This document shows positions 7,489 to 36,565 of a stretch of 64,000 nt of DNA, piece by piece; position 1 is the first letter of the stretch, and each line of letters begins with the position of its first letter. Source of the stretch: Nigrospora sphaerica (Eukaryota > Ascomycota > Sordariomycetes > Amphisphaeriales > Apiosporaceae); the NCBI GenBank assembly GCA_018287875.1, contig JAGVVL010000021.1, positions 806,001 to 870,000 on the forward strand, written 5' to 3'. Both the position numbers and the translations under genes were made by a program. Under the pieces are notes generated by a model. It was not told where the DNA came from. It was given only the letters and a program-made list of their open reading frames with translations, and ran no database searches.

Positions 7489-8419
7489 ATGTCTGCCGGT
7501 TTGTTCGCTCCTTGCCTGTTCTCTGGTGCTCATTTTGCTAACTTTTTTCTTCATAGCGGTTGGCCAAGGCAGTGGCGGGCGTGCGCCTGTCCAGGGCAGC
7601 GGCAAGCCTGGCCGCGATCACGAGGACAGCGAGTCCGACATAGACCCCGAGGAGCTCAAGCGTGCCAGAGAGCTCATTAAGCGCGCCAGGGCCAAGGACA
7701 AGGCTCGCAAGGCCGCTAGCCCGTCTCGCGCTGAGATGGCTATTCTGCGGCGCCAGAAAGGTGACTTGCGCTTCACACCCTGTCTCCCTTGTTTGCGTGG
7801 TGCCGAGCGTCATTCTCGTGGCCATTGCCACGATACTCGCTTGCCAGGTGCCTTGAAGTGCTACGAGTGCACTTTAAACAACCATCAGTGCGAGGAGGTG
7901 CCCGAGTGGCTTGCCCTGGCTGCTCGTTCCTTGTTGCGTGAGCTGAACCGCCCGGTCCAGAACGTTGTGAGTACCCTTTTGCTGCTGATTCTCCTGATGA
8001 CTGTCCTGACAGGCTTGCAGCCTCAGATTCGTCGCATGAGAGCGACCGTGAAGGGCTTGCGCGATCTGCATGGCCTTCCCGACGACCACACGCTTCTTGG
8101 AGGCGACGTGGGCTCTCCTGAGCCTCGCAGCGCTCCGGCGTCCGACAGCTCTTCGCCGCTCTCTTCCCCCCCGCCTTCTGAGTCTTCTCCAGCGCCAGAG
8201 ACGCCTACGCCTGGTCCTAGTGCGCGTACCAAGCTGCCTGAGAGGCGTGGCGAGCGGAGAAAGTAGGACTTAAGCTCGAGCTTTAGTTCCTCCAATGTTT
8301 CCGGCGACAATCCTGCGGATCTTGGCCCTATCGTGGAGCTCAGGGAGCGCGCTCCTCGCGTGCAGTACCACACGAAGGAGGCTCGGAGGAAGGGAAAGCA
8401 AGGTCCTAGCTGGGGTTAA
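7489..8419 (+). CDS. Antisense accessory gene of the Copia element, cysteine-motif protein
   Basis: Predicted exons are 7489-7498, 7557-7966 and 8021 onward. Intron 1 (7499-7556) has a TGCTAAC branch and TTCATAG acceptor; intron 2 (7967-8020) has donor GTGAGT, branch CTGAC and acceptor TTGCAG. Both preserve the frame and remove implausible hydrophobic stretches. The product begins MSAAVGQGSGG, has a charged helix (PEELKRARELIKRARAKDK), then a cysteine cluster with PCLPC, a lone HC and KCYECTLNNHQCEEVPE, then a Ser/Pro-rich tail. TAG at 8264-8266 ends it at ~250 residues, but the same frame stays open and protein-like to TAA 8417-8419. That TAA overlaps the pol TAA (8416-8418) in one TTAA. The gene runs opposite to pol, has its own TATA box and shares its cysteine signature with the Gypsy antisense gene at 29486-32541. 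Function unknown; the motif could bind zinc and nucleic acid. Confidence 0.7.
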
Positions 8420-11400
8420 CGGTGGCGTTTTTTCTTCTTGGTAGCTTGTGGGATGCTTTGCGGTGCGTTTATAGATACTAAAGCCCTGCTCTTAGCAGCA
8501 GGGAGTATCTCGTCTGCGATGCTTTGAGATTCTTCAATCCATATGCGTTGTTTTCCATTCTCTGCTTCCTCGATCGCTTGTCGGATGTCCTGAAGGTTAA
8601 GAGTCGCTCTGAATTGTTCAAATTTCGCCCGTGGTAGATTCTTCGTTAGTCCGTCGGCTGGCATATCCTTTGTGGCGAGATAGATCAATTGAAATGAGCC
8701 CCTGGAGTATTCTTGGCGGAGCCAGAGGTTATGTATATCAACGTGCCTTAGCTTCGTAGATACCCTCTCCTGATTGCCGATGACAAGGCGTATCGTCTGC
8801 TGGTTATCACAGGAGATGCTGAAAGGCGCGTCTAAGACGAGCTGGATGTCTCTAAATAGCCTCTGAAGTGCCATGGTCTCCTTGGCTGTCTCGCTGAGCG
8901 CCAGAAGCTCTGCCTCCGTGGTGGAAGTGGTAACTGTCGCTTGTCGGCTGGCCTTCCAGGCTACTGGTCCTCCGAATAGCTGGATGAGGTATCCCTGGGA
9001 AGAACGACGCGTCTCCGGATCGTCTGCAAATGAAGCATCCGTTGAGATAACTAGCGCCTGTGGGATAGACTGCACTGCTTTCTTCATTCCGTAGCGTATC
9101 GACACGTATCTAGTGCTAAACGCGTACCGTATGCACCAGTCAGCTGCCTCGAGATGCTCTTGACTTGGATTCGTGAGGAAGCGAGATAGCTGTGAGCAGG
9201 CGAAGGAAAGGTCCGGCCTGATCATAATAGCGCTGTAGAGGATGCTCCCAACTCGTTCCTGGTAAGCTTTAACTCGGTGAGCTGGAGCAGTGTTTTGATG
9301 AGCTTCTAAGGCTGTGGACGGGAGTGGTGTCGCTGGTGACTTGTCGTCCTGGAGGTCAAAACGCCTCGCTATCTTCTCAAGATAGCTGTCATGCGAGAGC
9401 CAGAGTAATCCCTCGTTTCTCTTACGAGTGACCCTGACCCCTAGGTAGTAGCCCACAGATCCTTGGTCCTTTAGCTCATAGATCCCCTTGAGAGCTTCGA
9501 TTAAGGCGAGTGCCTCCTCTTTAGCTTGTGGGCTGTAACAGACTAGGAAATCGTCCACATAGAACACAACGAAGATCGTGCGTTTCTCGTTGTAGAACAG
9601 GCAGGGTTCCTCAGGTGTGCTGACAAGCCCAAGTCTTCGAAGTGAGCTCGAGAAGTCTCGGAACCATAGTTGAGGTGATTCCTTAAGTCCATAAAGTGCT
9701 CTGTTCAGCTTGAGACAGTATCCTGGCCTTTCGTAGCCCGGTGGATGTTCCACGAAGATTGGTTCGGAGTTTTCTGCGAAAAGTGCGTTCAGGAATGCGT
9801 TGACAACGTCGAACTGTCTGACTTCCCAGTCGAAGTAGGCTGCTAAGGCCATGATAATCCTGAAGGACTTCGAGGCTAGCGTGGCAGCATACGTGCTGGC
9901 TAATGAAGTGACAATCTGCTTGTCTCCTCGCACGCAGATCCTTGCTTTGCAGCGAAGGTGTTTGTTGTTCTCATCGAATTTATCGGTGAAAACCCATTTT
10001 AAGGGCAGCTTGAAGAGCGAGGGAGCGTCTGGAACCTCCTCCCAGGCTTCCATAGCTATTGCCTTGTCGATCTCGAGCTTAGTAGCTTGTCTGAACTGCT
10101 CTCCTCTGGGGTGAGTAGCTAATTCACGCCAGGACTTGGGTGGAGGAGCGAAGCCCTGCGGTCCGCTCGGTTCGTCTAGCTCCTCGAGTGCTCTTTGAGA
10201 TCGTGTTGACGCGAATATTCGCGCATAAATAGTTCTCAGGAGGTCCTCATCTTGGCTTGTGGCCTCCTTAGCGAGACAGGTACTTAAGAGTGCATCGAGA
10301 TGATCAGTCTCTTGCTGGGTTATCTCCTTGAGCCCGAATAGCAGCGAAAGGAACGACTGCTGATCCGTTTCCTGTCCTCTTTGGAGTCTCGAGCTCCTCC
10401 TCGCCGGTTGCGTCGGCTGTGAGGCTCGGGATCTCCTACCCCTAGTTGCTCTGCGGCTCTCAGGCGGTCTCTGGTCCGTCTCTTCGTCAAGAGGTCGAAC
10501 AATAATTTCGTCATGGATCTCTTCTTGTAGATCCGTCTCTGGAGTCTGACCTTGCAGTCTCTGAGGAGCTATGCTCCGGTCTGGTGTCCCAGTTGAGCTC
10601 GTCGGCCTGCGTGCCGAGATGTCTGCTGGTTCTGACACTTCGGGTGAGCCTGAGAGTGGCCGCTCTGCTGCTCGTCCCGTATTTTCTGACCCTGACTCTC
10701 CAGCAGTTGCAACTGGCTGGTGATCACTGGATCTATGCCGTGGTTCGCTTATAAGGTGTTCCGTAGGGTAAAGCATGCTGTTTTCGCCCTCCGGCTCACT
10801 TAACTGGCGACCAGGCGTAAGAAGTCCTGTCTGTGCATCCGACATCCCAGGCCCATGAGCTCCTTGGATGTCTTCAGGTGCGCGTCTCACCCCCGAGTTC
10901 TTGTCGACTGGTCCCTCAGGTGTGTCCGGCACCCCCAAGTCCACGAGATGAGCCTCTCGAGTGGAGTCGGGACGTGTTTCAGGACTTATGGCGTCGTCTA
11001 GCTCCTCAAGGGCTTCCCAGAGCGGCATCGACTCATTCGTAAAGCCTGCTTCGCTCAATGGGATCTCTGAGGGCTGAACTTCCAGATATTCTATCGCCTC
11101 AGGCTCAAGACGTTGCGAGTCTCGGCTGGAATAGAACTGCGTCTCGTCGAAGGTGACGTCTCGCGTCTGGATGACTCTGCCGTGCTTGGGCAACCAGATC
11201 CTGTAGATGTTCCTAGCGGCGTAACCTACTAGATATCCGATCTGAGCCCTTGGTTGAACTTTGAACGCTCGTCGGTCCAGCCCAGCCGCTCGTCTCTGGT
11301 GTAACGCATACGCTTTGCAGCCGAACACGTATATCCCAGACCAGTCTGGCCGTAGGTCTGCGTGTATATCACGCACATGAGCTGGGCTGTACCGCTCTTC

Positions 11401-13737
11401 ATTCTGCACAAACCAGGAGTCTAGCGCCTCATCTGGGCTTCGGAAGCGTTGCGCCTGTGATGGGCACATGTTGATGAGCTTGGTTGCCGCTCTCGTTGCT
11501 TCCGGCCAGAGCGCCTCGGGTAGCTTGGCGTGTTCCCTTAGCTTCAGTGCCTTATTGATGACCTCCTGACCTGCTCTTTCTGAGCCCCCATTCGGCTCAT
11601 GGGTGTTCGGAGGGGATATCTCAAGTTCGATTCCTTCCTCCTCTGCCCAACGCTCATATTCGGTCATGCCCTGGATTGCTATCACTCCCTTCTCCCCGTC
11701 GTGCTTGAGGATTGCGATGTGAAGGTTGTAGCGCCTGAGGACATGCCTTTTGAAGCTTCGCAGTATTCGAAATAGCTGCGTGTGTGACTTGGTAGGCGAA
11801 GTGAACGACCAAAGCTTTCCGCTGTAATCGTCCTTCAGGACTATTAACCAGCGAGACCCATCATACCCACGTGGATAGTCAAATAGGTCCCAGAGCACCC
11901 TGAAGAACGGTCTTGGGGCTCTTTCTGCTGGAATTCGACTGATAAGTCGTCTGGCGTCCGTAAGTCTGCAAGTCTCACACTCCGTGAGCGTCTCGCCTTT
12001 GAAAGCGACATTCTGTCCTCTCTCAGCGAGCTTCCTGAGCGCATCTCGGCCTAGGTGTCCAGCCCTAGCATGCCAGAGTGCCTCAGAATCCATCCGTATC
12101 CTTGGTCTTGTTTTTTGAGCTTCACCTGTGGGTGCTTTTCGTATGGCGGGAAACGCTCTCACTGTCCCAGCCGGTGCGGAGATGACTTGAGAGGCGAAAG
12201 AGAAATAAGAGTAAAGAGGCTTGTATTCGAGGAACGTAAGGTTGCCTACTCTTTCCAACTTTCGCACTAGAACGCCTTCTCCGTGCTCACCATAGCGTAG
12301 AGCGCACTCTCTGCCATGGTACCAGATCCCTGCCTTCAGGAGTCTCGCCTCTGAGATGATGTTGGTGTGGAATCCTTCGACTAGTTGCACGTCATGTAGC
12401 ACCAGGTCTACCTTGCCACCCTTGGGACCGTTGAGTAAGCCCCTTAGGACCCTTGTGCCTGATCCCTTGATGGAGAAGGCCGACGACCCTGCCTCCACAA
12501 CTGATCCAGGACGCGAAGGAGTGAAACTTCCTTCCTCAAGTAGCTCCATGGAGTTGACAATGTGCGAGGAGCCGCAACTGTCAACGACAGTCGACTGTGA
12601 GAGGTTGTGAGGGCCGATTTGAGCGGTAACCGCCAGGTTGATGTTGGCAGGCGTGGGAAAGGCCTCAGGGATAATAGTAACTGCGACGAACGGCTCAGAG
12701 GTGGTCTGACCTGCTCCCTCTCCCGGCTTCTTCTCCTCGATGAGCTTGCGGAGTGAGTCCCAGTGTCTTGCCATGGCTCTTTCTCGTATTTCCTTTGCCT
12801 TAGTGTTGTTGAGTCCCCTAAACTTGGCTCCGTTAGGTAGGAGGTCCGCAGAGCTCGTTAGGGCAAACTGGAGACGTCTGCACTCCTTGGGTTCCCATTG
12901 GTGCTTTTCTCCGCGAGGCAGGCAAGGACAGGCGTGTAAAGTTCCGTAGTTCCGTTTTCTCGCCTGTGAGGTGGTCTGATGGGCTTCTCTTTGATCTCCG
13001 AGTGAGGCGAATGACTTGTGACGTTTGTCTAGCGTGCTAGAGGAAGTCACCTGCTCGAGAAAGATGGAGCTCAGCTGAGTTAGCGTGAGTAGTTCCTTTC
13101 CGGTCACTTCGTCCTTGAGCATCTCGTCCAATTGAATCTGAGCCCATTGTGGAGCCATGCGCTCGCGAACTGCCTTCAGAAACGCCTTAGTTGCAAGTGC
13201 GCTTTGCACTTCAGGGATCCCATGGGCTTCGGCGAGAGCGTGAATAGCGGTGAACTCGGCATGCCAGGCTTCTGGAGAGATTCCCCCCTTTGACGCGTTT
13301 GCCAGGACTCGCTGGTAGCGATCTTGAACTGCGTTGAGGACGGTGGACTCCGCCGGTTGATACTGCTTCCTAAGCTCCTTAAGCAGCTTCTGGAGCGTGT
13401 TGGTCTTGCTTCGCTCGATAGTCGTGGTCGTTCCGCTCTCGATAGCGGTGGTAGCTTCGGTGGCTATGCTGACTAGCTTGAGTTTCTTCTCCTCGGCCTC
13501 GATGCGCCCGTAAGCTGCCGTGAGGTACTCCTTCTTGACCGTCTGCCTGACCCATTCGGTCAGAAACAGATAATGGTTGTTGAGAGTATTCCAGATGCTT
13601 GTGTCGGCTGCAAAGGCTCTCAGCTCTCGTTGGAAACGCCTCTCTGCTGCGTCCAATGCAGCAGAAGACTCATTATTCGCTCCTTGAGGTTCCTGGTAGA
13701 CTGGTCTTTCAATCAGGCCAGTCGTACTTGCTGACAA
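8416..13737 (-). CDS. Copia Gag-Pol polyprotein, intact
   Basis: A single 1773-residue frame in Ty1/copia order. Gag is ~1-330, with a helical capsid-like region and an atypical C/H cluster at 270-286. Aspartic protease follows around 384 (VVDSCGSSH in place of the usual DSGAS). Integrase is ~553-800: H-H at 556-561 and C-x2-C at 587-590, then the D,D,E core in VLWDLFD, HDGEKG and NGGSERAGQE. Reverse transcriptase contains YVDD near residue 1393, and RNase H has TDASFADD near 1565 and TEAELLALSE near 1608. Integrase before RT is diagnostic for Copia. There is no frameshift or stop between gag and pol, so the products must come from one polyprotein. The protein looks functional. Confidence 0.95.
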   Translation of the reverse strand: MSASTTGLIERPVYQEPQGANNESSAALDAAERRFQRELRAFAADTSIWNTLNNHYLFLTEWVRQTVKKEYLTAAYGRIEAEEKKLKLVSIATEATTAIESGTTTTIERSKTNTLQKLLKELRKQYQPAESTVLNAVQDRYQRVLANASKGGISPEAWHAEFTAIHALAEAHGIPEVQSALATKAFLKAVRERMAPQWAQIQLDEMLKDEVTGKELLTLTQLSSIFLEQVTSSSTLDKRHKSFASLGDQREAHQTTSQARKRNYGTLHACPCLPRGEKHQWEPKECRRLQFALTSSADLLPNGAKFRGLNNTKAKEIRERAMARHWDSLRKLIEEKKPGEGAGQTTSEPFVAVTIIPEAFPTPANINLAVTAQIGPHNLSQSTVVDSCGSSHIVNSMELLEEGSFTPSRPGSVVEAGSSAFSIKGSGTRVLRGLLNGPKGGKVDLVLHDVQLVEGFHTNIISEARLLKAGIWYHGRECALRYGEHGEGVLVRKLERVGNLTFLEYKPLYSYFSFASQVISAPAGTVRAFPAIRKAPTGEAQKTRPRIRMDSEALWHARAGHLGRDALRKLAERGQNVAFKGETLTECETCRLTDARRLISRIPAERAPRPFFRVLWDLFDYPRGYDGSRWLIVLKDDYSGKLWSFTSPTKSHTQLFRILRSFKRHVLRRYNLHIAILKHDGEKGVIAIQGMTEYERWAEEEGIELEISPPNTHEPNGGSERAGQEVINKALKLREHAKLPEALWPEATRAATKLINMCPSQAQRFRSPDEALDSWFVQNEERYSPAHVRDIHADLRPDWSGIYVFGCKAYALHQRRAAGLDRRAFKVQPRAQIGYLVGYAARNIYRIWLPKHGRVIQTRDVTFDETQFYSSRDSQRLEPEAIEYLEVQPSEIPLSEAGFTNESMPLWEALEELDDAISPETRPDSTREAHLVDLGVPDTPEGPVDKNSGVRRAPEDIQGAHGPGMSDAQTGLLTPGRQLSEPEGENSMLYPTEHLISEPRHRSSDHQPVATAGESGSENTGRAAERPLSGSPEVSEPADISARRPTSSTGTPDRSIAPQRLQGQTPETDLQEEIHDEIIVRPLDEETDQRPPESRRATRGRRSRASQPTQPARRSSRLQRGQETDQQSFLSLLFGLKEITQQETDHLDALLSTCLAKEATSQDEDLLRTIYARIFASTRSQRALEELDEPSGPQGFAPPPKSWRELATHPRGEQFRQATKLEIDKAIAMEAWEEVPDAPSLFKLPLKWVFTDKFDENNKHLRCKARICVRGDKQIVTSLASTYAATLASKSFRIIMALAAYFDWEVRQFDVVNAFLNALFAENSEPIFVEHPPGYERPGYCLKLNRALYGLKESPQLWFRDFSSSLRRLGLVSTPEEPCLFYNEKRTIFVVFYVDDFLVCYSPQAKEEALALIEALKGIYELKDQGSVGYYLGVRVTRKRNEGLLWLSHDSYLEKIARRFDLQDDKSPATPLPSTALEAHQNTAPAHRVKAYQERVGSILYSAIMIRPDLSFACSQLSRFLTNPSQEHLEAADWCIRYAFSTRYVSIRYGMKKAVQSIPQALVISTDASFADDPETRRSSQGYLIQLFGGPVAWKASRQATVTTSTTEAELLALSETAKETMALQRLFRDIQLVLDAPFSISCDNQQTIRLVIGNQERVSTKLRHVDIHNLWLRQEYSRGSFQLIYLATKDMPADGLTKNLPRAKFEQFRATLNLQDIRQAIEEAENGKQRIWIEESQSIADEILPAAKSRALVSINAPQSIPQATKKKKRHR

Positions 13738-13903
13738 GCAGGACCTTCGAGAGCGTGTGATCGGACATGTTGAACGGGGTTCGCAGTGAGGCTGGTCTCA
13801 GCTGCGAATAAATGGATGGATGGATGGAAATGGGGTTTAAAGAGAGTCCTCACGATCCTGAGACTTGTGCAGCGTTTTAAGTGCGTTGAGAGACGCAAGT
13901 AAA

Positions 13904-13918
13904 GGCCGGGCTCATAAC
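13904..13918 (-). promoter_or_regulatory. Primer-binding site, initiator tRNA-Met half-molecule type
   Basis: Directly inside the 5' LTR the minus strand reads GTTATGAGCCCGGCC. This is complementary to the anticodon arm of initiator tRNA-Met (the plus strand reads CGGGCTCATAAC, including the CAT anticodon). Drosophila copia and yeast Ty5 are known to prime from an internally cut initiator tRNA; the same mechanism is inferred here. Confidence 0.75.
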
Positions 13919-14108
13919 TGTCGCACTGCAGGGGACGTGAGGAACGAGGTTCTGGTTGTTCTATTAGGAAAAACAAAGGAAAACTATCTGAGGATCCAGA
14001 CGTAGATATAGTAGCTCCGTAGCCAGCCTGACAGGCTAGGCTCTTGAGCTTACATAAGGTCACGTGACCTGGTAGGCTTGTTAGTGACAATAGGCTCGTC
14101 TCGCGACA
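13919..14108 (-). repeat. 5' LTR of the Copia element
   Basis: 190 bp; ends TGTCGC and GCGACA; one-base difference from the 3' LTR. Confidence 0.95.
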
Positions 14109-14300
14109 AAGGCAAAATAGTTGAAGCGTATAGTAGTAGTAGTAGTAGTAGTAGTAGTAGAAGTAGAAGATTCTAACACCTAGCGACCTATCGAGGCCAT
14201 GAGGACCCCCTACATGTCTAAGCCTAGGAAAACCGTGCCGGTCAAATGTCCGGCCGGATGAAAAACCCAGGTGCCGTCGCGTCGTGCCGCCTTCCCCTAC
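14109..14300 (-). mobile_element. 5'-truncated 3' end of the Tad-like LINE
   Basis: The minus strand repeats the 3' untranslated end of the LINE found at 38640-38779 (shared blocks GGTTTTTC, GGTTTTCCTAGGCT, GGGGGTCCTCATG, GGTCGCTAGGTGT). It ends in a (TAC)n microsatellite tail, 14131-14160 on the plus strand as (GTA)n. Short 3' fragments with simple-repeat tails are typical of aborted LINE insertion. The Copia element abuts its tail. Confidence 0.8.
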
Positions 14301-14843
14301 CATCCGTGTAAGTCCGTCGCTGTCTGAAGTCGAGCCACAGATGAGCAAGCATACCGGAATGCACACAAACGGGGATATTTGACTTCCATTAGTATGTACC
14401 ATGTAGTGCTTTGGTAGGCGAAACCCACCGTGGCTTTGCTCATTGAAGTGGTTGCCTTGGCGGATGAAGGGAATCGTTTACGGCTTGGCGAAGTTTTTAG
14501 TGGTTCTGGACTACGATTAGGGACTAGCATTATTAGACTCCCTGAGCCTAAAGTTCATCATGTCCGAAGTAGTTTGATGTTCGTGTTCCGGTATTGGATG
14601 CGACACTTCTGCCCCTACTGGTGTAAGTGGGTCTCTACTAAACCTGACACTCGTGATCGAGATCAAACCTGCGGCGGTTCGGAAGTTGCGTCCTGTATGT
14701 AAAGGAGGCTGGGGGAGTCTGGCTATAGGTCCACTTGTTCGTATATATATATGTAAGTTCTAATAGCCTCAGATCGAGGGAATATGGAATGCGAATTGCA
14801 AGCGATCGATATATTTGTACCCGAATGACAGCGTCTACCCATC
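14301..14843. other. Intergenic, nothing recognised
   Basis: No supported gene. A short TATATATA run is present near 14743. Confidence 0.4.
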
Positions 14844-15818
14844 ATGACAGGGATTGTAGCCCCTGATGCCGCCATGTCTCTACGGCGCATGCCCGACTTC
14901 TCATGGGATCGAGACCCTACCACTGTACGCGCTGTGCCACCGGTCTATGTCGGGCGGAGCCTGTATACCGACTATGTCCACCTGGGAAACAACAAGGCGG
15001 GGTGGCTTGGCATGCGCCGCCAGGGCGGCTATCAGGTCGTCCAAGTTCGCTATACTCCTCACCTGACCATTTCGGATTTCCGGACTCTTCTGGGGATCCG
15101 ACATCCGAACATCGCGCCTATGCTCGGAATCTACTCCAGTGGGCATACCACTGCTGTGGTGCATGAGCAGGTGGATCTCGACCTATTTGACATCGCACCC
15201 TTCCTGTCTGAGGTGGATATTGCGAGCGTTATAGTGCAGGTGCGATGGCCCGTCTCGATACTTGCCCCAGGGCTATAACGAGATCACAACCCCCGCACAT
15301 CCCCTATGAAGGCCGGCAGCTGAATGACGCTAGATACTTTCGGCCGTCACCTATCTGTTGTCCCAGCCTATTGACGTGCGTATCAGGACGGTTCGTGTCT
15401 TGCTGTACGGGGCAGTGAAACTAAGTAAGGCCCTCCCCAACGCACCAAAACTCCCGCTAAGTCGCTCTAACCTACAGTTCTTGATCTCAGCGAGAAGCCA
15501 TCGACCGACCTCTGTCGCCGAAAGGCCATGCATCGTTTCATGGTTTCGTACGTGGAGCAGGTCATGACAAATATGGCCGCTGATAACTCTACTTGGACGT
15601 ATGACGCCGCCGATTTCTTGGATGTTCTGTACTCTGGCCAGCTGCCTCCCATCAGTGTGAGTCCACAGCTAGGGAATGCCTTTCCGTGGTATTGACGACC
15701 GACAGCACCCTTTCCTGCATCAGTCGAAGCCCCCCATTTGCTTGCGCAGGTGGACTTTGTCGGCCGTATGCATAACTCTGGTCAAGGTGGAATGTGGCAA
15801 CCATGGAAGACGACATAG
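14844..15818 (+). pseudogene. Fungal protein-kinase-like gene, probably degenerate
   Basis: Exon 14844-15239 encodes an N-lobe-like segment (FRTLLGIRHPNIAPMLGIY, then VVHEQVDLDLFDIAPFL). A later exon ending at 15424 reads DVRIRTVRVLLYGAVKL, matching the strands around a kinase catalytic loop. Intron 15425-15477 (GTAAGG, CTAAC, TACAG) leads to 15478-15656, which reads like a C-lobe (YDAADFLDVLYSGQLPPIS); a last exon may run 15750-15818. The HRD catalytic segment between 15240 and 15360 cannot be recovered and no clean splice model joins that part, so this is either a pseudokinase or a decayed gene. Family placement rests on pattern reading only. Confidence 0.4.
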
Positions 15819-16553
15819 TGGATACGAAGCCTCGTGATATAGCTAGTGAGGACTTACACATATTTGACTGGCAAGCTCTTTTCTGTTGCCTCTAATGGGG
15901 CTGGGTATACCTGGGAGATGAATGGAAACCTCAAGACGTGCCTTGACGAAATATGATAATGACTAGCCAAGTACCAAATGAATGTATCGGGGAGCTCGTC
16001 TTACCCAAGCTAGTTACCCCTATACAATAGCAGCTAATTCGGCCTTAGAGTACATCCAGGCCTGCTATGAATCAGTCTTAGCCAATAGTTCGTGTGTGCC
16101 GCATCAACTTCGGATTTCCAAGGAAGCAACAGGCTTAAAATTCGTAATATTCAACCTAGTTGGATTCCTTTCTTGCTTGAGTGAGAAGCAGCCGCTTTTA
16201 CAGGCCCGAACAGGACAATGCTGGGGCTTCCTAATTACGGCAGCGAACGGGTGGCTGTCTAACGATGGGAGGAGATATTTACCGGCTGATCAAAGAAACG
16301 ATGCAAGCTAAGCAATGATCAGGCCTCAATGCATCGTCTCCGCCCCAGAGCAAGTGTGCCTGCAGCTTCTACCCTGGCTCGGTGTGCCATCGGACCTCTT
16401 CCATCCGTCGGACTTCAATCAGTCCGATACCGTCTTGTAGCGCTTTTGGGCTGTTCTTATAACCGACATAGCATTCGTGGTCCTTGTATTCAATGCGTAT
16501 CGTGATCTTCTAAGTCCAGTTTGATTTTCCCACCCCGAAAACACTATCGCAAC
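15819..16553. other. Intergenic, nothing firm
   Basis: A 109-codon frame at 15982-16311 has no recognisable features. The stretch probably includes the 5' region of the bZIP gene. Confidence 0.4.
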
Positions 16554-17275
16554 ATGACGGGGGAGTCTGCTTCAAGCAATTTTGAATCATCTAATTGTGA
16601 GCTACAACATTCACTCTATACCTACGACCGTTTTATGCTAACATCTCCAGGCAAAAAAAGGACAGTGTCTTCCTTGTCTCCCGCTCAGCTTGCTGAAAAG
16701 CGAGCAAAGGATCGCAAGGCCCAGCGTGCCTGTCAGAAACGCGAGAGAGAGGCAATTGAACGCTTGGAAAGAGACATCGAAGAGCTTCGTAGTGAGAATC
16801 AAACGCTCAAAAATGAGCTTGACATGCTGAAAACTAGCATCCGCCTCTCTGTTAATGAGCCGCCAAGCTCCATGCAGCCGGGTAATTCTTGCCCTTGTAT
16901 TGCGCATAGAGCCACACACTTAGCCGATAAACTGATGTTTTTACAGATCTCTATATTTACACGCCCCTCGTATCTTGGGAAGACCAGCGACTGGTTGGCC
17001 CTCTGATGCACGACGACACGCCCTACTCTGGGACTGGATGGCCCATACATTATCAGCCACTGGCACCACCACCTGCCCCAAGTCCTTTCCCCTTCCCTTG
17101 CTCTTCTACCCTTGAAGTTCAACCCCTTCATTCTGGCGCAATACGATCTTGGGGCTGGCAGGGTGTCTCATCAAATACAAGCGAACCAATTCCTAGTTTA
17201 GCGTCAAGGCGTGAGGTGTTAGGCCCCGGTAGGATACAGCCCCTTGACACACCCGGAAGCCAGGTCGATATCTAA
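16554..17275 (+). CDS. bZIP transcription factor (three exons, 200 aa)
   Basis: Exons 16554-16596, 16651-16881 and 16947-17275 join in phase (43+231+329 nt = 201 codons with stop). Intron 1 has GTGAGC, TGCTAAC and CCAG; intron 2 has GTAATT, CTGAT and ACAG. The product starts MTGESASSN. It has the fungal lead-in SLSPAQLAEKRAKDRKAQRA, a basic region rich in K/R with the R-K-x-A-Q-R-A pattern, and then a leucine-zipper coiled coil (ERLERDIEELRSENQTLKNE). A short Pro/Ser-rich tail follows. This layout fits the small Yap-like bZIPs common in filamentous ascomycetes. It would act in the nucleus as a dimer; target genes are unknown. The nearby secreted glucanase is not obviously co-regulated. Confidence 0.85.
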
Positions 17276-21945: not shown

Positions 21946-22756
21946 ATGGTTGCCATCGATTGAAAATTTACAGGTTCCATAGTCGAAACCCAGTCGCTGA
22001 TGACGTCTGTCATGTCCAGTGATGGTGCGGCCGAGCTTTTATTAGTACCTAAAGATCCCGACTCTTCTTCTGGTGCCCGATTGGAGGTTTGGCACTTCAA
22101 CGGGCTCTTTTTAGTCACGCCTGCCCAGTCCTGTACCGTTTCACCCGTTGCATGCCGATGCAGTTTTGGGATCTGTAGTCCGTTGCGTATTGGACGTCTA
22201 GAGGCGTAACGTTCTGTCTTGTGGTCGTGGCAATCCATCGAGACGGTCATGGAAGGAATCTGCCAGAGCGTGTTTCGGTCTTTAGATCACCTTGGTTGAA
22301 ATCTAGAGATTCGAGTACGCTAGGCCCTACAAGTGTCAGTGGTCCGTATATATATGAGTTGCCTCGTTATGCTGGCCGTTTCCCGACCGCAGGAGGTCAA
22401 AGCGCGGCATCCATACACAGAATCAACTAATAGACCCAGAAAGGGCCTCATTCGTTGCGGCACCGTCCTACAGAAATGGAAGAGGCATGTACCGTAAGGG
22501 AGTGCCGGTGTAGGCCTCACTGCAGAGACCGTTTGTGACGGACCTTGCGGCCAGATACAATACCAAAATCGGCTGTAGTCGCAAATTCCACACATGGCTG
22601 GGCCGCCATACTGCTGCTTATGGCAGCCGATAGTGCTGCTCTATAGACGAAAAACTTTTTCGAAACCGACCCCACACAGCGATAACTTCACAACCACGAC
22701 TCTATAAGCTACCGGATAGCCCGGAAACTGTTCCTAGGGCTTCATTTAGCCTAGAA
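21946..22756. other. Unassigned stretch up to the LINE
   Basis: Contains the minus-strand 126-codon frame noted with the minisatellite and, at an undetermined point (probably 22.6-22.7 kb), the 5' untranslated end of the LINE. Nothing else is recognised. Confidence 0.35.
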
Positions 22757-24115
22757 ATGGTCGATTTACCACCCTCGAGGCAAAGCGCGGGTGGTGGGAG
22801 CCGCCATAGGCCCGCCCCACCCCCCGAGCCGTCACCTCCGGACTCAAGAACACCATCGCCAGACAGCACTACAGCACCTGGACGCAGTCCAGAGGATATA
22901 CGCAGTACTATAGACGACTTCAAACGCTTCCTAGCTGGTGAAGTCAACATTGTGGCCTTAGCCGCAGCAGTTCAAGCCGCTATCCCGGTCCTTGAGACGG
23001 CGGCTAAGGAATCGGACAACCAGCCCAGCGTCGAAAGACGTATCAATGCTATCGAGAACACGCTGCAAGCTATCTATAAGGAAATTGAAGCTCCTAAGAC
23101 GTACGCTACAGCCGCTACTGCCCTTACCGCCGCCCCAGCGCCCAGGGCCCCCCAGGTAGCCAAGACTCTGCCTCCTCGACACGAACGGGAGGTAACAGTT
23201 ACGGCCGCAGGAACTGAAGGCCGCACTTACGAGGAGATCGTACGGAAAGTTAACGCAGCAACAGGCAGAGAAACAGCAATAGCCGCACGGAAGCTTCCTA
23301 GCGGAGACTATGCTATTACCTGCAAGACAGCAGAAGAGAAGCGACAGCTGGAAACTGACCGGGCCTGGACCACCGAGGCCTTCGGAGAGAACGCCTCTAT
23401 CCAGAAGAGAAAGATCCTAGTGGTGGCCCATGGCATCAACAAGGAGGCCATAGAGACGAACCAAGGGCAGCTAGAAGTCCAACTCCGGAACCAGCCCGGC
23501 GGCCCTATCGACGTCCTGGAGGCCAAGCTCCCTCGCAATGCTAAGACCTCGTCTAGGAAGGTCACGGCCCTATATATTGCAGTATCCACCGTTCAACAAG
23601 CGGAACAGCTATGTCGAGACGGCCTTATCTGGCAGTATGGCTACTATCCATGCGAGCCCTTCGCCGAAGGAGCACAGCTCAAGCAATGCTACCACTGCTA
23701 CCGGTATGGACACATCGCCCGTGTCTGCCGCCACGCACGCAGGTGCGGGCTCTGCTCTTCAACAAAGCATGACGATAAAGAATGCCCAGAAGCCGAGAAT
23801 AAGAGCCGGTACTGCTGCCCAGCATGCCGAGGACCACACACTGCGTGGTCTAAGGAGTGTCCAGTCCGCCAAGAGCAGGTCCAGATCGCCAAGGCTACTT
23901 ATGTCACGAGACCGAAAGGATTCGCACTGCCCTCGCAAGAACCCCCTAAGTCAACAGCCGAGGACTGGCAGACAGTACAGCCGCGAAAGCGTCGAGCAAC
24001 TAGCTGCCGTACTAGAAGCACTGGCAGAGCCCGCAGCAGAACCCACGAAGAGACAGACGACATGGACATCGAAACACCGGAGTCAACACTAAACAGCATC
24101 CACGCTCGACCATGA
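22757..24115 (+). CDS. LINE ORF1, gag-like nucleic-acid-binding protein
   Basis: 452 residues, uninterrupted. The N-terminus is Pro/Ser rich, followed by helical segments. The C-terminal third carries tandem CCHC-type zinc knuckles: CYHCYRYGHIARVC, then CGLCSSTKHDDKEC, then CPACRGPHTAWSKEC. A basic tail rich in R/T/S follows. This is the ORF1 architecture of Tad/I-group LINEs, which binds element RNA in a ribonucleoprotein particle. Its stop codon TGA overlaps the ORF2 start codon in ATGA (24112-24115). Confidence 0.9.
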   Translation: MVDLPPSRQSAGGGSRHRPAPPPEPSPPDSRTPSPDSTTAPGRSPEDIRSTIDDFKRFLAGEVNIVALAAAVQAAIPVLETAAKESDNQPSVERRINAIENTLQAIYKEIEAPKTYATAATALTAAPAPRAPQVAKTLPPRHEREVTVTAAGTEGRTYEEIVRKVNAATGRETAIAARKLPSGDYAITCKTAEEKRQLETDRAWTTEAFGENASIQKRKILVVAHGINKEAIETNQGQLEVQLRNQPGGPIDVLEAKLPRNAKTSSRKVTALYIAVSTVQQAEQLCRDGLIWQYGYYPCEPFAEGAQLKQCYHCYRYGHIARVCRHARRCGLCSSTKHDDKECPEAENKSRYCCPACRGPHTAWSKECPVRQEQVQIAKATYVTRPKGFALPSQEPPKSTAEDWQTVQPRKRRATSCRTRSTGRARSRTHEETDDMDIETPESTLNSIHARP

Positions 24116-27100
24116 CAGCGCTAAGGATCCTACACTGGAACACGCAGAAAAGCAAGAAAGCACAGATCCCGGTAGTCGATGCCATCTCCGAAGAGTACGA
24201 CGTCCTAGCTATCCAAGAGCCCTGGCGAAACCCAAGCATGCGGACCACCTACTGCCCGAGATCCTCTCCATACTACCTACTTTACGCGACCGAGGGAGGC
24301 AGGGCATGCATCTATATTAATAAGAAGTACACCCCAGCGCAGTGGACATACGAGGCGCAGCCAAATAAGTGTCGTATCACAATCCAACTACCAGACGGTC
24401 CTATAACGGTTGTCTGCATATACTCGCCTCCCCCTGGGTCCACCAGCAGATCGGACCTACCCGCTATCGAAGCCCTCTATGCCGAACCCCAGCCAAGACG
24501 AACAGTCCTCGTGGGAGACTTCAACGTCCACCACCCCGTCTAGGGAGGATACAATGTCCGACCCTATAATGCAGCTAACAAGCTGCTCCAGCTAGCAGAA
24601 TCCTGGAGGCTCCAGCTGATCACCCCCCCTGGAACACCGACATGGACTCGAAGAGGGTGCATGGACTCCACGATCGACTTAGCGTGGGCCACGGACGATC
24701 TCCGAGCTGCCTACGACGGGTATGCCCTATTTGCTGGATCCGATCACCTCCCCCAAGTGATACGCGTGGCTGGACCCTGTATAGACCGCCAAGACAGGCT
24801 ACGACGCAGCTGGAAAACAGCTGACTATGACCAGGCGAAGGCAAAGGCAGCACACCTACCACAGCCAGGGCAACTCGAGACACCAGAAGAAATCGATAGC
24901 TACACCGAGACGTTAACTAAGGAGCTAACTCGGATAGCCGACCTGGTTGCCCCCCTCCGCCACTTTAAGGGGAGAGGCAAGGCCTGGTGGGACCACGATA
25001 CAAAAAGAGCTATAGAGGAGGAGAGACGAGCCCAGCGAGCATGGCTATCCGACAGGACAGACGCAGCCTGGCGAGCCCTTCGGCAAGCATCCCTTGCGAA
25101 AAAGAAAACGATCCGCACCGCAAAGACAGCAACCTGGAGAGGCATGCTTCACGAGGCCTCTAGCCAGCCAGCTGGCGTCTGGAACATCGCGAGATGGGCC
25201 AGAACCGAAGGAGCCGCACCGCCGCTACCTCCAGCTGTCCCCACGCTTCACACACCGCGAGGCGAAGCAATGACCCATAAGGAGAAAACGGAGGCCTTCC
25301 GAGAGAGGTTTTACCCTCTCCCTAAGGCCATGTATACCGGCTTCCGTATAACAAACCGGCTCGCAGCGCCTCTCGACATCGACGACGAGGTGACAGCGGA
25401 GCAGGTCCAAGACGTCTTAAGCAAGGCAGGCCAGTGGAAAGCACCTGGACCAGACCAGCTTCCGAACGGATTCCTTAAGCGCTTAGGAAAGCCCCTCTCC
25501 CAGGCCTTAGCCTCCCTAGCGGAAGCATGCTGGCGTATAGGATACTACCCAACAGCGTTCCGCAAAGCAGTGACCGTTATCCTCCGAAAACCAGGAAAGC
25601 AGCCAAACGAGTACCGTCAAGCCGGCGGATGGAGACCTATCGCGCTGCTTAACACCATGGGGAAGGTGATCGAGAGCCTGCTGGCGCAACGGCTAGCCAG
25701 CTTTGCGGAAGAAAACGGGCTGCTCCCGGACGAACAGATGGGGAACCGAAAGGGCCGCTCCACGGAAACGGCCTTACGGCTGCTAACGGACCTAATCCGA
25801 ACAGCCTGGAAGCATGGAGGTGCAGCAACCCTTCTATCGCTGGATATCTCAGGCGCTTTCGACTCCGTTGACCATAGAAGGCTCCTTGCCAACTTACGCG
25901 CGTTACGGGTCCCTATATGGACCATCAACTGGATCCGAAGCTTCCTATCTAACCGGTCCACGACGCTATTCTTCGACGGCCAGGAATCGGACGAGATCCC
26001 AGTCCCGGCAGGCGTCCCACAGGGCTCACCCCTATCGCCTATCCTCTTCTGCCTCTATACAGCCGGTCTCTATAAGGCTCTCCGCGCCGTACCAGGGATA
26101 GCTACTATAGCCTTCGCAGACGACACGAACCTCGTGGGCTTCGGCCTAGACCCCGAGCAGACCTGCGAGCGGCTGGAAGCCGCTCACAGGATCTGTAAAG
26201 AATGGGCAGTCAGCCACGGCATGACCTTCGCAGTCCAGAAATATCACCTAGTCCACTTCTCTCGAAGACGGAAAGGTCCGGACACGAAGATAGCCTTAGA
26301 AGGTCACGAAATCGAACCAGAAGACTCCTGCCGCGTCCTTGGCATCCAGGTGGATAGACGTCTCCGCTGGGACGTCCATATCCAGTCGATATCGAAGAAG
26401 ATGGCGACGCAGGTCTATGCCTTAGACCGGATAGCCGGCTCGACATGGGGCGCGTCTCTCCAGCGAGCCCGCCAAGTCTATACAGCCGCCGTACGGTCTG
26501 CGATAGACTATGGAGCTTCAGAGTGGCACCGCCAGATCTCGAAAAATAGAGCTAAGGCACTCAACGACGTCCAGACAGAGTGCCTCCGAAAGGTCACAGG
26601 AGCTTTCAAAGCCACGGCCACTGCAGTACTAGAAACGGAAGCTTACGTGTCCCCCTTAGACACGTGGCTCAACAGAAGGGTGGCGGCGTCGGAAGAGAGG
26701 CTCCAACAGCCGCGTATCGCATCACTTATCCAAGCTAGATGCGACATGGCAGCTAGGTGGATCCTAACAAGGCCGACTCAACGACGTAGACCGACTGGTC
26801 CGGAAGTCCCCGACCGCAAGAGATGGCTAGACATGTGGCTAGCCGGAGAGTCGGCAAGCAAGGCCGAGGAGAGAGACTGGCTCCAGAAATGGCAGCAAAG
26901 CCAGACACTGCGGCAAAACCAGATATCGCGAGCTCCAGTAACAACAAAAAAGCCTCCGGAAAAGCATGTCCTTAAGCTCCATAAGGGGCTCCATAAGGCG
27001 GAAAGCTCGATCCTCGTCCAGGCAAGGACTGGCAAGATTGGGCTGCGGGACTTCCTCTTTAAGCGCAGGGTTCCTGGCTTCGACAGCCCATGGTGTGATT

Positions 27101-27309
27101 GTGGCCAAGGAAGGGAGACCGTCCGGCATATCCTTGTTTTCTGCCCAAGGGAGAGAGAAAGACGAGAATACCTTGTCCAGGCGCTAGGGGAACCGATAGA
27201 CACGGACAGGATGCTCGATACCCCAGGGAAAGCAGGAACTATAGCGAGATGGCTGCTCCGCTCAGGTAGGCTGGGCATGTTCCAGCTGGCAAACCAACTC
27301 ATCAACTAA
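24112..27309 (+). pseudogene. LINE ORF2 (endonuclease, reverse transcriptase) with one amber codon
   Basis: A single frame of about 1065 codons starts at 24112 by stop-start overlap with ORF1. The apurinic-type endonuclease begins LRILHWNTQKSK and includes IQEPW and VGDFNVHH. A TAG at 24541-24543 then interrupts, where WG is expected in the endonuclease; the same frame continues (SDHLPQVI) into a reverse transcriptase with GPDQLPNGF, LLSLDISGAFDSV, GVPQGSPLSP and the catalytic FADD near 26116. The C-terminus has a CDCGQGRETVRHILVFC cysteine/histidine motif. No RNase H block is evident. TGG-to-TAG is a G-to-A transition. The original stop was TAG across the insertion point 27307-27308/38580; the inserted pogo now supplies TAA. 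Confidence 0.9.
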
Positions 27310-27350
27310 GTTCAAGTACCCACTTTCGGGCACCCCCCACTTTCGGGCAC
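27309..27350 (+). repeat. Left terminal inverted repeat of pogo B
   Basis: 42 bp, perfect match to the reverse complement of 38536-38577, with an internal tandem duplication that may be paired transposase binding sites. Confidence 0.9.
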
Positions 27351-28780
27351 CCCAAAAACCAGCCACCTGATTTTGTACTCTCCTACGTCTTTCCCCCTTT
27401 TCTCTCCCGTGTTCGCTCCAATCTATCCTAAATTTCGCATAGAGCCTCTGTTTATTACAATGAAGCAGTATTCCGAAGAAGACCTTCAACAAGCGCTTCA
27501 AGCTATATTAAGCGGCCAAACAATTAAGCGTGCCGCGATCGAACATGGGATTCCAAGGTCAACACTTCAAAACCGAATTAAGGGTCAACAACCAAGATCA
27601 GAAGCCTTCTCCGACTTCCAGAGGCTTAGACCGGTCCAGGAAGATTTACTTACAACCTGGATCCTAACCCAAGCTGCCCTAGGGCTTCCGCCTTCACACG
27701 CCCAAGTTAAGGAGTTCGCCGAACGCATCCTTCGGGCTCAAGGCGACAGCGAGCCACTCGGAAAGAGGTGGCTGCAGGCCTTCCTACGCAAGAACCCAGC
27801 TGTACGGGTCCAGAAAAGCCGGTCTATCGACTCGCAGCGTGTCAATGGCGCCTCAGTCGAGGTAATTCGCCCATGGTTCCGATATCTTCAGCTGCCGGAG
27901 ATCCAGAGGGTGAAGCCGGCTAACCGCCACAACATGGATGAAGCAGGACTCCTAGAGGGTGCTGGATCAAACGGTCTAGTACTTGGAGGTTCGGAAAAAC
28001 GCTCAGTCCGAAAGAAACAGCCTGGATCTCGTGCTTGGACGTCCTTCATTGAGTGCATCTCCGCTCAAGGACATGTCCTACCCCCCTTAGTCATTTTTAA
28101 GGGCAAGACGGTTCAACAGCAATGGTTCCCGCTTAATTTAAGCCAATTCAAAGGCTGGCAGTTCACTGCAACCGAAAACGGATGGATCACAGACCAAACA
28201 GCGCTCGAGTGGCTCGAGAAGGTCTTTATCCCGAATACCACCCCCGAGGACCCTTCCGAGTACCGCCTACTCGTTATGGACGGCCATGGTAGCCATACAA
28301 CAACTGATTTTATGTTTCAATGCTTCTCTCATCGGATTTACCTTCTCTTTTTGCCCCCTCATACCTCTCATGTCCTCCAACCTCTCGATTTAGCCGTTTT
28401 CAGTTCTTTAAAATCGGCGTACCGGAAGGAGCTCGGATTTCTGACTCAATTAACGGACTCAACGGTAGTTGGCAAGCGAAATTTTCTTGCCTGCTACCAG
28501 AAGGCTCGCTTAGCTAGTCTTACCGGTCAGAATATCCGGAATGGGTGGAAAGCCGCCGGTCTCTGGCCGGTGAGTATAGCTAAGCCGCTTCTCAGTCGGA
28601 ATTTAGTTCAAAATGCACACCAAACAACACCCAGCACAACAGAATCGAAGCAATCCCACTTGAATGGAGTTTTCTTAACACCTAAAAAGAGATCCGGTAC
28701 CTCTATAATGGTTTGGTCTACTCCAAAGAAGACGTCGGACTTCAAGGACCAAGTACAGCTTTCGAACCAGCTAGCGAAAC

Positions 28781-29013
28781 TGTAACGGAATGATACGAAT
28801 CGAACGAGGTGACTATGTGCACGCAATTCCAATGACTGGCTGGCTGTATTGACTTCAATCTGGCCGTCCCTCCGTTTGCGGGCGCGGCCAGATTCTGCAT
28901 AAGGGCGCCCCGGATTAACGTGGCGCCGCTCCGCCGTTTCGGCGACCGCCCTGGCGCTTGCTTCCCGCCGGCGCGCCGACGCACCGCCGATCCGCCCGCC
29001 CGGCCCCTTTACA
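28781..29013 (-). repeat. 3' LTR of the Gypsy element
   Basis: 233 bp, TGTAAC..TTTACA on the plus strand; identical by eye to 37951-38183. A run of seven G (minus strand) sits just inside, as expected for a polypurine tract. Confidence 0.95.
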
Positions 29014-29485
29014 ATGCCCCCCCAATTCCTGGGCCCGGTCTCCGGCGCCCGTGGAATTCCTATCGGTGGAGCGGTCTCGGGTGCGCCGCGCCGCGTGGGT
29101 CCTTGGCCCGCCACCTTGTGGTCGCCGCCCTTCGTGGGGTTGTCCTATGCGCTCGTTATGTCTGCTGGCCCGCCCGTCGGCGGCCGGTCGTTGCCTGGGC
29201 GGCGCTGCCCCGCGCTGCGTGTTTGTCTCCAGTCGCGCTCTCTGTCGCGGCGGCCTCGCCGCCTCGCCGCCTCGCTGCCTCGCTGCCCGTGTTGCTGCCT
29301 GGGGCGCCGAGGGCTCGGCTTTGTTTGTAGCTCCGTACTCCATACCAACTCCTGGGTCGGCGCCTGGTTGCAGCTTTCCTTTGTTCCCGTTCCTTGTGGC
29401 AGGCGACCTCTCCATTCCCCGTACGTCTCGTGTTTCGTGACGCTCTCTGTTCCTCATCCATTCGTTCTTCGACTGTTCGCCGACA

Positions 29486-32400
29486 ATGCTGTACCCGATC
29501 TACTCGCGCGAGGACGCGCTTAACCGCATTCGCGAGTGGGAGGTCCTCCCCGCCTGTCACTCTGTCTTTCGTTTTGGACACTCCGGCGGCCCTTTGTCCC
29601 GGAACGCCGACGACGATCTTGTCGTTTCCTTGTGCGTCCCGCATCCTGGTCGGCGCTCTATCGGGCCTCGCTCGGCTGCCTCGGGCGTTGCTAACCCTCC
29701 CCTCTAGCCCCAATGCCTTTTGTTGCAACAGTGTCACGACCGGCGCTGTTGATCCCTCTCTGAACTGTGAGGGTGCCGGCAAGTGCGGGATCTGCGCCAT
29801 TGATCATCGCAAATGTGTCGCCGTTTGTGTTGCCCTTTGCCCGCGACTGTGTTGCGATGGCTGACGCGTTTAGATTCCCGAGGAATTGGTCGGTGCCGGC
29901 CGCGTCCTCACCGCTGGCATCGCCCATCTTCGCGTCCTTCAATACCGCGGTACCCACATGGGCCAGGTGGGCAGTTCCAATTGGAACTGGCGATACGTCC
30001 AAGCCTATGGGTCGCTCAAGACGGTCTACCACGAGGCGGCGATGGCTTTCCGCCTATGCTGCAATGAGGAGGACATTGCCGTCTTCCAGGAGCGCAAGGA
30101 ACAGAAAAAGCGCGAAGCCGCCAACTCCCTCGCCGTTGTTGAGGCGCAGAGCCAGCGCCGGTTCGTCCAATTACAAACGGACATCCTCGCCGTGAGTTTC
30201 CCCTCCTTTCGCCGCCGCGTCGGCGTACTGGTTCTAATCGTGTTCCGGTAGGGCGCCCATGGCCAACGGGAGCCTGTCAGTGCTGAGGAGTACCAGCGGC
30301 GATACACCCTCGCCCTTCCTGTCGGCGATCGCAGTGCCGATAGCCTGTCCCGCCTTATCGCGCACTGCGAGGAACTTTATCGCCTAACCGTCGACAACTA
30401 CGACGACAAGCTGTACCGCTGGGCGCCTGGATACCATTTTCTCGCGGGCGAGGCCACATCGGATATCGATTGGCAGCGTCGGTTCAAACGATCGCAGAAA
30501 AAGGTGCTGCGAGGGTTGATTCGTGGTTTGGTGTCAACCACGCCCGGCGGGAGAAACATGGTAAGAGCCGCGTTGCTCGAGCAGGTCCCGCCGCCCCTGG
30601 TCGCCGTACCCCGGTGAGTCCTCCCCGTCTTCGTTTTGACGCGACCGGTCCTTAGTTAACACTTCCGGTAGGGTAGCAAGGCGTCTGTCCGCCGATCCCA
30701 TTCCGACGCACGAGTCGACTCCGCCGGGCCTTCGTCGCCCTTCACGCCAGTCCCCGCCGCGATGCCTGGCGATGAATCGCCTTCCGACGACGAGGACTCT
30801 GACGACGACGCCTCGAGCCTGGGTGCGGACACTGACGACGATGGCGAGTACGTCCAGTCGCCGTCCGGTCGCAGCTCTCCTTCCGGCTCCAGTGCCCGTC
30901 CTGGCCCCTCCGGCCGGGGTGGCTCGGGCGCGCCTGCGCTAGAGGATCGCGACCTGCTGTCCTCTGCTGCGTCCCTGTCGGACGCGCCGATGTCCTCTGC
31001 GCCGGCCTCTCGGGTCCAGCGCTCCACTCGTGCTGCGACACCCTGGCCCTCCAGCCCTGCCTCCGGCGTCCGCTCTGCTAGCGGTGCTCCCTCCGCTAGC
31101 GGCGCCTCCTCGATGGTGGAGTGGCGGGCCGAGCGGCGGATCCATCTCACGATGATCTCCAATACCTGTCCTCTGCCTGAGAAGCCTTGGTCCGCGGAGG
31201 AGTATCGCGACTGCGTCGCCGCGCGCTTGGAACTGTGGCATAAGTTCGACCAGGTCCCCACGACCGTCGCCGAGCCACCTCATTCGTCCGCTCGTGACCA
31301 GAAACTCATTGAGTTTCGCGATTTGGTTCCCCCCGCCCTTCCGAGGTTGGAGGCCACCATAATCCTGTCGCAATGTACGACGTTTACCATACTGCCCGAC
31401 GCGGTTTCGAGACCTGGCTTCGACGTCTACACCCTTGCCTTCGTCCGGCGGCTCGCTGCCGTCCCCTCTCGTCGCCGGCGAACGGCCAGCGTACTTACAG
31501 CGCCTCTCCGGGCTATGGCAAGGCGAGTACGACCCGTTCGCTTCGCCTAAGCGGGTAAACTTCAGCATGCCCGGCGACGGCGGTCGCGACGTTTCCTCGC
31601 TGGACAGTAGCCGCTCTGGTTCCGATGTCGTGGACGGTCTGGACTCGTGCGGCCCTTCCTCTCCCTTGAGCGCGGTCGCCGACCCAGATGCGTCCGACGG
31701 CGGCAACGCCCTGTCCGTTGGCTCCGACACCGGCGGTGACCGCTCCCCTAGCCCTGATGGCGATGTTGACATGGTCTCGGGGGCACTGACGCGTCGGCGC
31801 AAATGCCGCCACCCGCGCAAGCTCTTGCCCCGACCGGCCCGTCCGTGGACCCACACTGGACTGCCGAGCAATGGGCGCTCGCCCGCCGACGGGCCATGAA
31901 CCGCATCCTCGAGCTGTATCCTGACCCCGCTCCCCCTGTCAGCGTTACCGCCTTCCGGGACGTCCTTTGGGCCCGGCACTTCAGTCTCCACTCGGCGAAC
32001 CGCGAGATAGACACGGCTATGCGCTGGGATTCCCATCCCGCGCCGCCTAGTGTTCAGCACACGCGAGACACTGAGAACCTCGACGTGGCCACCATCACGC
32101 TCTCGGCGACGGCTGACGTCCTTGGTTGTGCTCCCCGAGCTGGCCATCTCTCTCTGGCTCGGCTTGCCCAGGCCGGCGGACGATCGCATGTCCTGCGCCG
32201 CTTCCCGATCGACGCTACCCGCCCCGATCCCATTGGAGCCGGGTACACACCCCGGTACGTCTCCGAGATCGTGACTAGCCTTCCGGCGGCGGCTCCTCCC
32301 CCTGCCGTTTAAGGACTGGTCCCCGGCCGCAATGGAGGAGTACTACAACAGCGCCTTCTCGTCACTCGGCTTGCGACGGATCAACGTCCTCGGTGGCATC

Positions 32401-36512: not shown

Positions 36513-36565
36513 CCCTGTCGCGCGGTGTGTGTCCGCTGAGTCGTCTTGCGCTCCGTCCGGCTCAG

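Follow-up and report, generated by a model that had tools for sequence, protein, structure and literature searches.

Antisense, intron-bearing, cysteine-rich accessory genes in Copia and Gypsy retrotransposons of Nigrospora sphaerica

Analysis of a 64,000-nucleotide (nt) stretch of the Nigrospora sphaerica genome (assembly GCA_018287875.1, contig JAGVVL010000021.1, positions 806,001 to 870,000; hereafter the window) demonstrated that a Copia element and a Gypsy chromovirus within it each carry a candidate accessory gene on the strand opposite to pol. The source assembly comprises 33 contigs with a total of 51.6 Mb. Both genes converge with pol and precede the 3′ long terminal repeat (LTR), a placement that the original prediction, made from the letters alone, had proposed and that the LTR pairs and pol strands bear out. 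Together with further copies in the genome, they provide good support for recurrent antisense, intron-bearing, cysteine-rich accessory genes in LTR elements. The features are as follows, in window coordinates.

7489 to 8266, plus strand: Copia antisense accessory gene, predicted exons 7489-7498, 7557-7966 and 8021-8266
7775 to 7906, plus strand: Copia six-cysteine region, C-x2-C-x11-C-x10-C-x2-C-x6-C, with proline at +4
29486 to 31374, plus strand: Gypsy antisense accessory gene, predicted exons 29486-29631, 29708-29822, 29874-30191, 30252-30613 and 30677-31374
29721 to 29882, plus strand: Gypsy cysteine region, C-C-x13-C-x5-C-x2-C-x6-C-x2-IPE, spliced over 29823-29873
6745 to 14108, minus strand: Copia LTR retrotransposon, LTRs 6745-6934 (3′) and 13919-14108 (5′)
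8416 to 13797, minus strand: Copia gag-pol frame, with Pfam matches above the cut-off to RVT_2 (E value, 8.3e-34) and SH3_retrovirus
28781 to 38183, minus strand: Gypsy chromovirus, LTRs 28781-29013 and 37951-38183, target-site duplication GAAAC
32711 to 33382, minus strand: Gypsy pol C-terminus with chromodomain (Pfam PF00385; E value, 8.4e-19)
34306 to 35769, minus strand: Gypsy reverse transcriptase (RT)/RNase H, from Pfam

The Copia element is bounded by a 190-nt direct repeat, identical at 189 of 190 positions, and comparison of the outer flanks by eye revealed no matching target-site duplication. Matches of its gag-pol frame to gag_pre-integrs and Pol_BBD fall below the Pfam cut-off. The accessory gene model starts with the ATG at 7489, contains introns at 7499-7556 and 7967-8020, and ends with the stop codon at 8264-8266, 149 nt before the pol frame. 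The encoded protein of 221 amino acids (aa) has a predicted isoelectric point (pI) of about 9.6, and the cores of families A and B, described below, have values of 10.1 and 10.5. The motif GALKCYECTLNNHQCEEVPE is encoded at 7847-7906 on the plus strand, inside a single exon. No Pfam domain, including Zn_clus, matched the protein above its cut-off.

The Gypsy LTRs are 233 nt each and identical to each other. The accessory gene model starts with the ATG at 29486 and has introns at 29632-29707, 29823-29873, 30192-30251 and 30614-30676; coding-like frames extend past the last modelled exon, which ends at 31374, to approximately 32310. The motif GAGKCGICAIDHRKCVAIPE is encoded at 29772-29882 on the plus strand only once the predicted 51-nt GT-AG intron at 29823-29873, which reads GTTTGT...GTTTAG, is removed. 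With that proviso, both motif strings of the original prediction exist, each preceded by GA (GA-x-K-C). The Gypsy protein had no Pfam match above the cut-off, and an outside protein search with 314 aa of it found no relative. The insertion point of the element, marked by the GAAAC duplication, lies where a transposase frame ends (DDE_1, E value, 2.2e-42; HTH_psq; HTH_Tnp_Tc5), at 27310-28785 and from 38184 on.

A search of the genome itself recovered near-identical copies of the Copia gene as well as relatives at 36-49% identity, which were grouped with it into families A, B and C. Among the members of family B are L027-L030, L032, L069 and L072, and family C includes L031, L033 and L074; opposite-strand Copia RT-RNase H frames were present in at least L028, L030-L033, L069, L072 and L073. 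In families B and C, the intron that follows MSA and the final intron occupy places matching those of the window Copia gene. The six cysteines, a GHCH stretch and NH are invariant across the models of all three families. In the models of L030 and L033, representing families B and C, a predicted intron creates the third cysteine of C-x2-C-x6-C. Before splicing this site reads HTY, and afterwards HTC-x2-[VL]-P. Pairwise dN and dS among the families were 0.70/1.76, 0.83/1.46 and 0.52/1.05, indicating purifying selection; a comparison of copies within a family recovered the window copy alone.

The position of the Copia-type gene was also repeated. At 30 of 38 gene places, it was convergent with RVT_2 on the opposite strand at a distance of 1.3-1.6 kb (38 of the 57 match rows were used, the other 19 being extra pieces of the same copies). 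Viewed from the other side, the gene was found near 30 of 66 RVT_2 loci. The stretches beside two further Copia RVT_2 loci (L086 and L087), whose LTRs were not located, showed no antisense frame bearing the cysteines. L086 has a 140-aa sense frame downstream of RVT_2 (1732-1313, minus strand), which looks MADS-like by eye and has no Pfam match. Outside protein searches with the family A protein and with Copia alignment A1 both found a single relative, P0001, which is near-identical to the Copia protein.

Copies of the Gypsy gene gave a comparable result, as all 20 places at 85% identity or more had a convergent RT. When 25 gene places were compared with 35 of the 90 RT match rows, 19 were convergent; five diverged fragments had no RT nearby, and at C5:129652, which is one of the 20 places, the nearest RT in this comparison belongs to a neighbour. 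A separate comparison with 64 of 150 RVT_1 rows found 13 of 20 places convergent, C5:129652 among them. Substitutions between copies point to purifying selection. Between exon 4 and L077, pN was 0.037 and pS 0.468 over 83 codons, with 2, 5 and 28 differences at the first, second and third codon positions; a second stretch of 38 codons gave pN/pS of 0.097/0.544 and a frame-disturbed stretch of 49 codons 0.244/0.344. Four stretches compared with L068 gave 0.059/0.144, 0.030/0.104, 0.009/0.000 and 0.031/0.080, and the comparison with L070 gave 0.436/0.640. Of the Gypsy gene's relatives, L070, L075, L076 and L077 are decayed or incomplete; L070 has kept an acceptor before an IPD exon, and no cysteine region could be read there.

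A second group of chromodomain-bearing Gypsy elements, represented by L089, shares 54% RT identity with the window element and has a Pfam chromodomain. Its antisense gene runs from 1801 down to about 812, between the chromodomain and the inferred 3′ LTR, and encodes a protein that starts with MPRAPHLSS and contains C-x2-C-x19-C-x9-C-x2-C-x6-C. L090 and L091 match L089 in the cysteines and in the intron place. All three have a predicted phase 0 intron two codons past the last cysteine, exactly at the window Gypsy intron site, which makes the window intron credible, and after splicing they have a proline four residues past that cysteine, as in the Copia and window Gypsy proteins. Convergent RT was found at 5 of 15 L089-type gene places (15 places out of 41 rows, compared with 35 of 90 RT rows). 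A tblastn search of L089 with the window Gypsy protein found nothing, and the L089-type proteins had no Pfam match to DUF3716 or Zn_clus. This predicted intron, which follows the third cysteine of C-x2-C-x6-C, has a GC donor (GCGAGT) in L089 (1591-1545) and L090, whereas the donor of L091 and L092 is GT. L088 was set aside as low-complexity sequence close to a contig end.

A third lineage connects the arrangement with a Pfam family. The L079 antisense protein, of approximately 290 aa, is a member of DUF3716 (29.7 bits against a cut-off of 22; E value, 6.3e-7), and its gene is convergent with an integrase frame that matches rve below the Pfam cut-off (7.3e-5). A relative of L079, L080, has weak matches to SH3_Tf2-1 and Integrase_p58_C, and the integrase of the lineage is taken as Gypsy-type. 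A genome search with the L079 protein gave 52 rows that collapsed to 30 places. The DUF3716-type gene was convergent with an integrase at 29 of them, 185-1025 nt apart, and was present at 29 of 51 integrase loci (the 30 places were compared with 60 of 63 integrase rows). DUF3716 had 23 matches in the genome at an E value of 1 or less, 14 of them above the cut-off; when coordinates were compared, 17 of the 23 and 11 of the 14 fell inside these antisense genes. Others, L082 and L083 among them, resemble genes of the host. The boundary of the L079 element was placed where similarity among copies ends; LTR pairs were demonstrated for the two window elements. RVT_1 matches near the DUF3716 genes on C7 and C8 (4 of 30 places) were discounted as their RT, since they share the 759-nt length of the window LINE match, and the integrase comparison was preferred.

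On balance, these results favour, with modest confidence, the reading that both window genes are real protein-coding antisense accessory genes of LTR retrotransposons, convergent with pol, immediately inward of the 3′ LTR, cysteine-rich and probably zinc-binding. It draws on position, repeated copies, introns predicted at common sites, selection against amino-acid change, the six cysteines of the Copia and L089-type proteins and the DUF3716 membership of L079; the putative zinc binding is read from the cysteine spacing. An improbable alternative is that the antisense products are not proteins and that the region yields antisense or double-stranded RNA regulating the element, with the frames as by-products. 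Convergent genes could give overlapping transcripts, and some copies contain stops. In L089 (1801-1715, minus strand) and L090, codon 29 is an in-frame TAG for which the gene model does not account; L092 and L093 also have TAG at this site, L094 has TAA and L091 has ATT. Purifying selection is evident on both sides of the codon (pN/pS, 0.135/0.452 before and 0.170/0.633 after), and the stop may represent readthrough or an old shared lesion. Codon-position bias, purifying selection, conserved intron sites, a cysteine made by splicing and a Copia gene that does not overlap the pol frame all speak against an RNA-only role. Still more improbable is that the frames arose by chance or belong to an independent nested insertion with no relation to the elements: the window does contain nested transposon insertions, but in dozens of copies the genes keep an almost constant distance and orientation relative to pol, which contradicts this explanation.

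Several observations weigh against the protein-coding, zinc-binding reading, in addition to the shared stop codon. No RVT_2 was found within 6 kb of 8 of the 38 Copia-type gene places, and no accessory gene was detectable close to 36 of the 66 RVT_2 loci or to 22 of the 51 integrase loci. The exon-1 comparison with L068 showed zero synonymous change (pN 0.009, pS 0.000, 49 codons). The window Gypsy protein has a modelled pI of 6.3 and is not basic, unlike the Copia protein. Structure prediction, proposed as a check for a zinc site, was too weak for use, with a mean predicted local distance difference test (pLDDT) score of 61 for Copia exon 2 and 33 for the L079 protein. The helical region that had been expected after the motif in both proteins received weak support in Copia, as a low-confidence helix at residues 99-112 of the exon 2 model.

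Whether the Copia and Gypsy genes descend from one ancestor is a separate question. The pattern C-x2-C-x(9-20)-C-x(8-10)-C-x2-C-x(6-8)-C was present in 10 of 11 listed sequences, the miss being the window Gypsy protein, which lacks the first C-x2-C pair and retains just the second half; the six-cysteine order is found in Copia A, B and C and in L089, L090 and L091. The half motif C-x2-C-x6-C appeared in 54, 86 and 144 of 20000 shuffles of Copia A, the modelled window Gypsy protein and L089, respectively, but the Copia and Gypsy pair had been noticed post hoc; the full pattern appeared in 0 of 20000 for each. The original prediction had attributed both genes to one family recruited by two LTR superfamilies. 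Recurrence was upheld and extended to three Copia families, the window and L089-type chromodomain Gypsy elements and the DUF3716 lineage, whereas the single family found no significant support in profile comparisons (P from 0.0013 to 0.49). With hhalign, Copia against window Gypsy gave P = 0.0013 and a probability of 18.8%, Copia against DUF3716 gave P = 0.008 and 4.8%, and DUF3716 against window Gypsy gave P = 0.49; the L089-type profile gave 0.29 against DUF3716, 0.12 against Copia and 0.25 against window Gypsy. These profiles were built from 3-6 sequences, and that of window Gypsy from one. Shuffled sequences reached the pairwise scores of Copia A, B and C against window Gypsy 17, 199 and 474 times in 1000, and those against the L079 protein 756, 113 and 101 times in 1000. 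Copia A, B and C and window Gypsy were unmatched by DUF3716 (PF12511; gathering score, 22 bits) at an E value of 10 or less, and profile searches of the PDB gave nothing better than an E value of 0.54.

Convergence, in which the Copia and Gypsy lineages each took up a different cysteine-rich gene and the common motif is uninformative on descent, is a serious contender, if somewhat short of an even chance. C-x2-C-x6-C is a widespread fungal zinc spacing that forms half of the Zn2Cys6 cluster, and Zn_clus, which contains it, had at least 148 matches in the genome (150 of 250 candidates scored). The absence of significant profile matches between groups, the ease with which shuffles reach the Copia B and C scores and the missing first pair in window Gypsy all fit this explanation, as do the different places of the introns by the third cysteine in Copia B and C versus Gypsy. 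Common descent is favoured instead by traits shared between the Copia and L089-type proteins, namely [PA]-C-x2-C, a lone middle cysteine, [KR] preceding the fourth cysteine, the proline four residues past the sixth (in L089, L090 and L091 once spliced) and an equal position within the element; the Copia proteins, moreover, do not match Zn_clus. Because the profile and pairwise comparisons are weak and Zn_clus is abundant, common descent and convergence are close rivals, and a single ancestor of the Copia and Gypsy genes appears to stand at near even odds.

If the genes encode proteins, their transcription would start from a promoter inside or close to the 3′ LTR, and they would be expressed as their own spliced mRNAs. 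In antisense orientation, spliceosomal introns would persist through retrotransposition, being reversed in the sense genomic RNA and hence left unspliced there. The genes may derive from host DUF3716-like genes, and the Copia protein, being basic with a putative zinc domain, may act on nucleic acid or chromatin. The favoured role, though at low probability, is that of a nuclear nucleic-acid or chromatin binder that regulates the element's own transcription or silencing. Complex retroviruses have antisense regulators and plant transposons have anti-silencing proteins; these two cases and the plant element Retand are the analogies behind the proposal. A simple basic nucleic-acid binder is disfavoured for window Gypsy because of its modelled pI. 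We also propose, tentatively, a broader scheme in which one host-derived family with a DUF3716-like zinc domain was captured in antisense by Copia and at least two fungal Gypsy lineages as a shared trans-acting regulator or anti-silencing factor. Antisense capture would let intron-containing host genes survive, and DUF3716 would here be chiefly a transposon protein.

To our knowledge, descriptions of fungal LTR elements are mostly limited to gag-pol. Plant Retand elements (Ty3/Gypsy) are reported to carry antisense open reading frames (ORFs) with a TRP28 domain between pol and the 3′ LTR, which are conserved in recently active elements and for which a regulatory DNA-binding role was proposed (PMC11963269). 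The fungal genes are likewise antisense to pol, convergent, located between pol and the 3′ LTR and repeated in copies. Unlike Retand, which is one Gypsy lineage of plants with TRP28, they occur in a fungus, in Copia and Gypsy lineages, with a cysteine domain and predicted introns; Retand is also described as a non-chromovirus lineage (PMC11963269), whereas the window Gypsy has a chromodomain. A second precedent is a mobile group I intron in myxomycete ribosomal DNA (rDNA) with an expressed antisense homing endonuclease gene containing a spliceosomal intron (PMC9548176). It resembles the present genes as a mobile-element antisense gene split by a spliceosomal intron and differs in encoding a homing endonuclease within a group I intron of myxomycete rDNA. 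The open-access literature searched yielded no account of antisense genes in LTR elements of fungi, and the term "antisense" occurs 0 times in the available portions of two fungal LTR surveys (PMC5445492, PMC3248453). DUF3716 occurred in 0 papers of the open-access literature searched.

Among protein domains, DUF3716, whose four listed members read C-x2-C-x(9-20)-C-x(8-10)-C-x2-C-x8-C, has the six-cysteine order of the Copia and L089-type proteins without significant profile similarity to them, and the last spacing is x6 rather than x8 in the Copia, window Gypsy and L089-type proteins. The Zn2Cys6 cluster has the spacing C-x2-C-x6-C-x(5-16)-C-x2-C-x(6-8)-C. The C-x2-C-x6-C half is shared with this cluster (Zn_clus, PF00172), while the first half, C-x2-C-x11/19-C, differs, and without a Zn_clus match the proteins do not belong to Zn2Cys6. 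If several lineages do keep selected intron-bearing antisense genes, standard annotation overlooks a layer of element biology. DUF3716, a Pfam domain of unknown function, would acquire a testable context, and how retroelements retain intron-containing host genes would become directly testable.

Other features of the window and genome were also recorded. Introns of the genome are short, and its repeat copies resemble products of repeat-induced point mutation and are rich in stops, traits that fit a filamentous ascomycete. An inverted solo copy resembling the Copia LTR lies at 5635-5824. The stretch 22634-27309 is a long interspersed nuclear element (LINE)-like element with a 921-aa frame matching RVT_1 and, weakly, Exo_endo_phos_2; its first frame has no Pfam match. 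Finally, a 2404-nt inverted repeat (156-2559 versus 55609-58012) has arms that are 97% complementary and 53 kb apart, each containing a 695-aa frame with no Pfam match at an E value of 0.01 or less.

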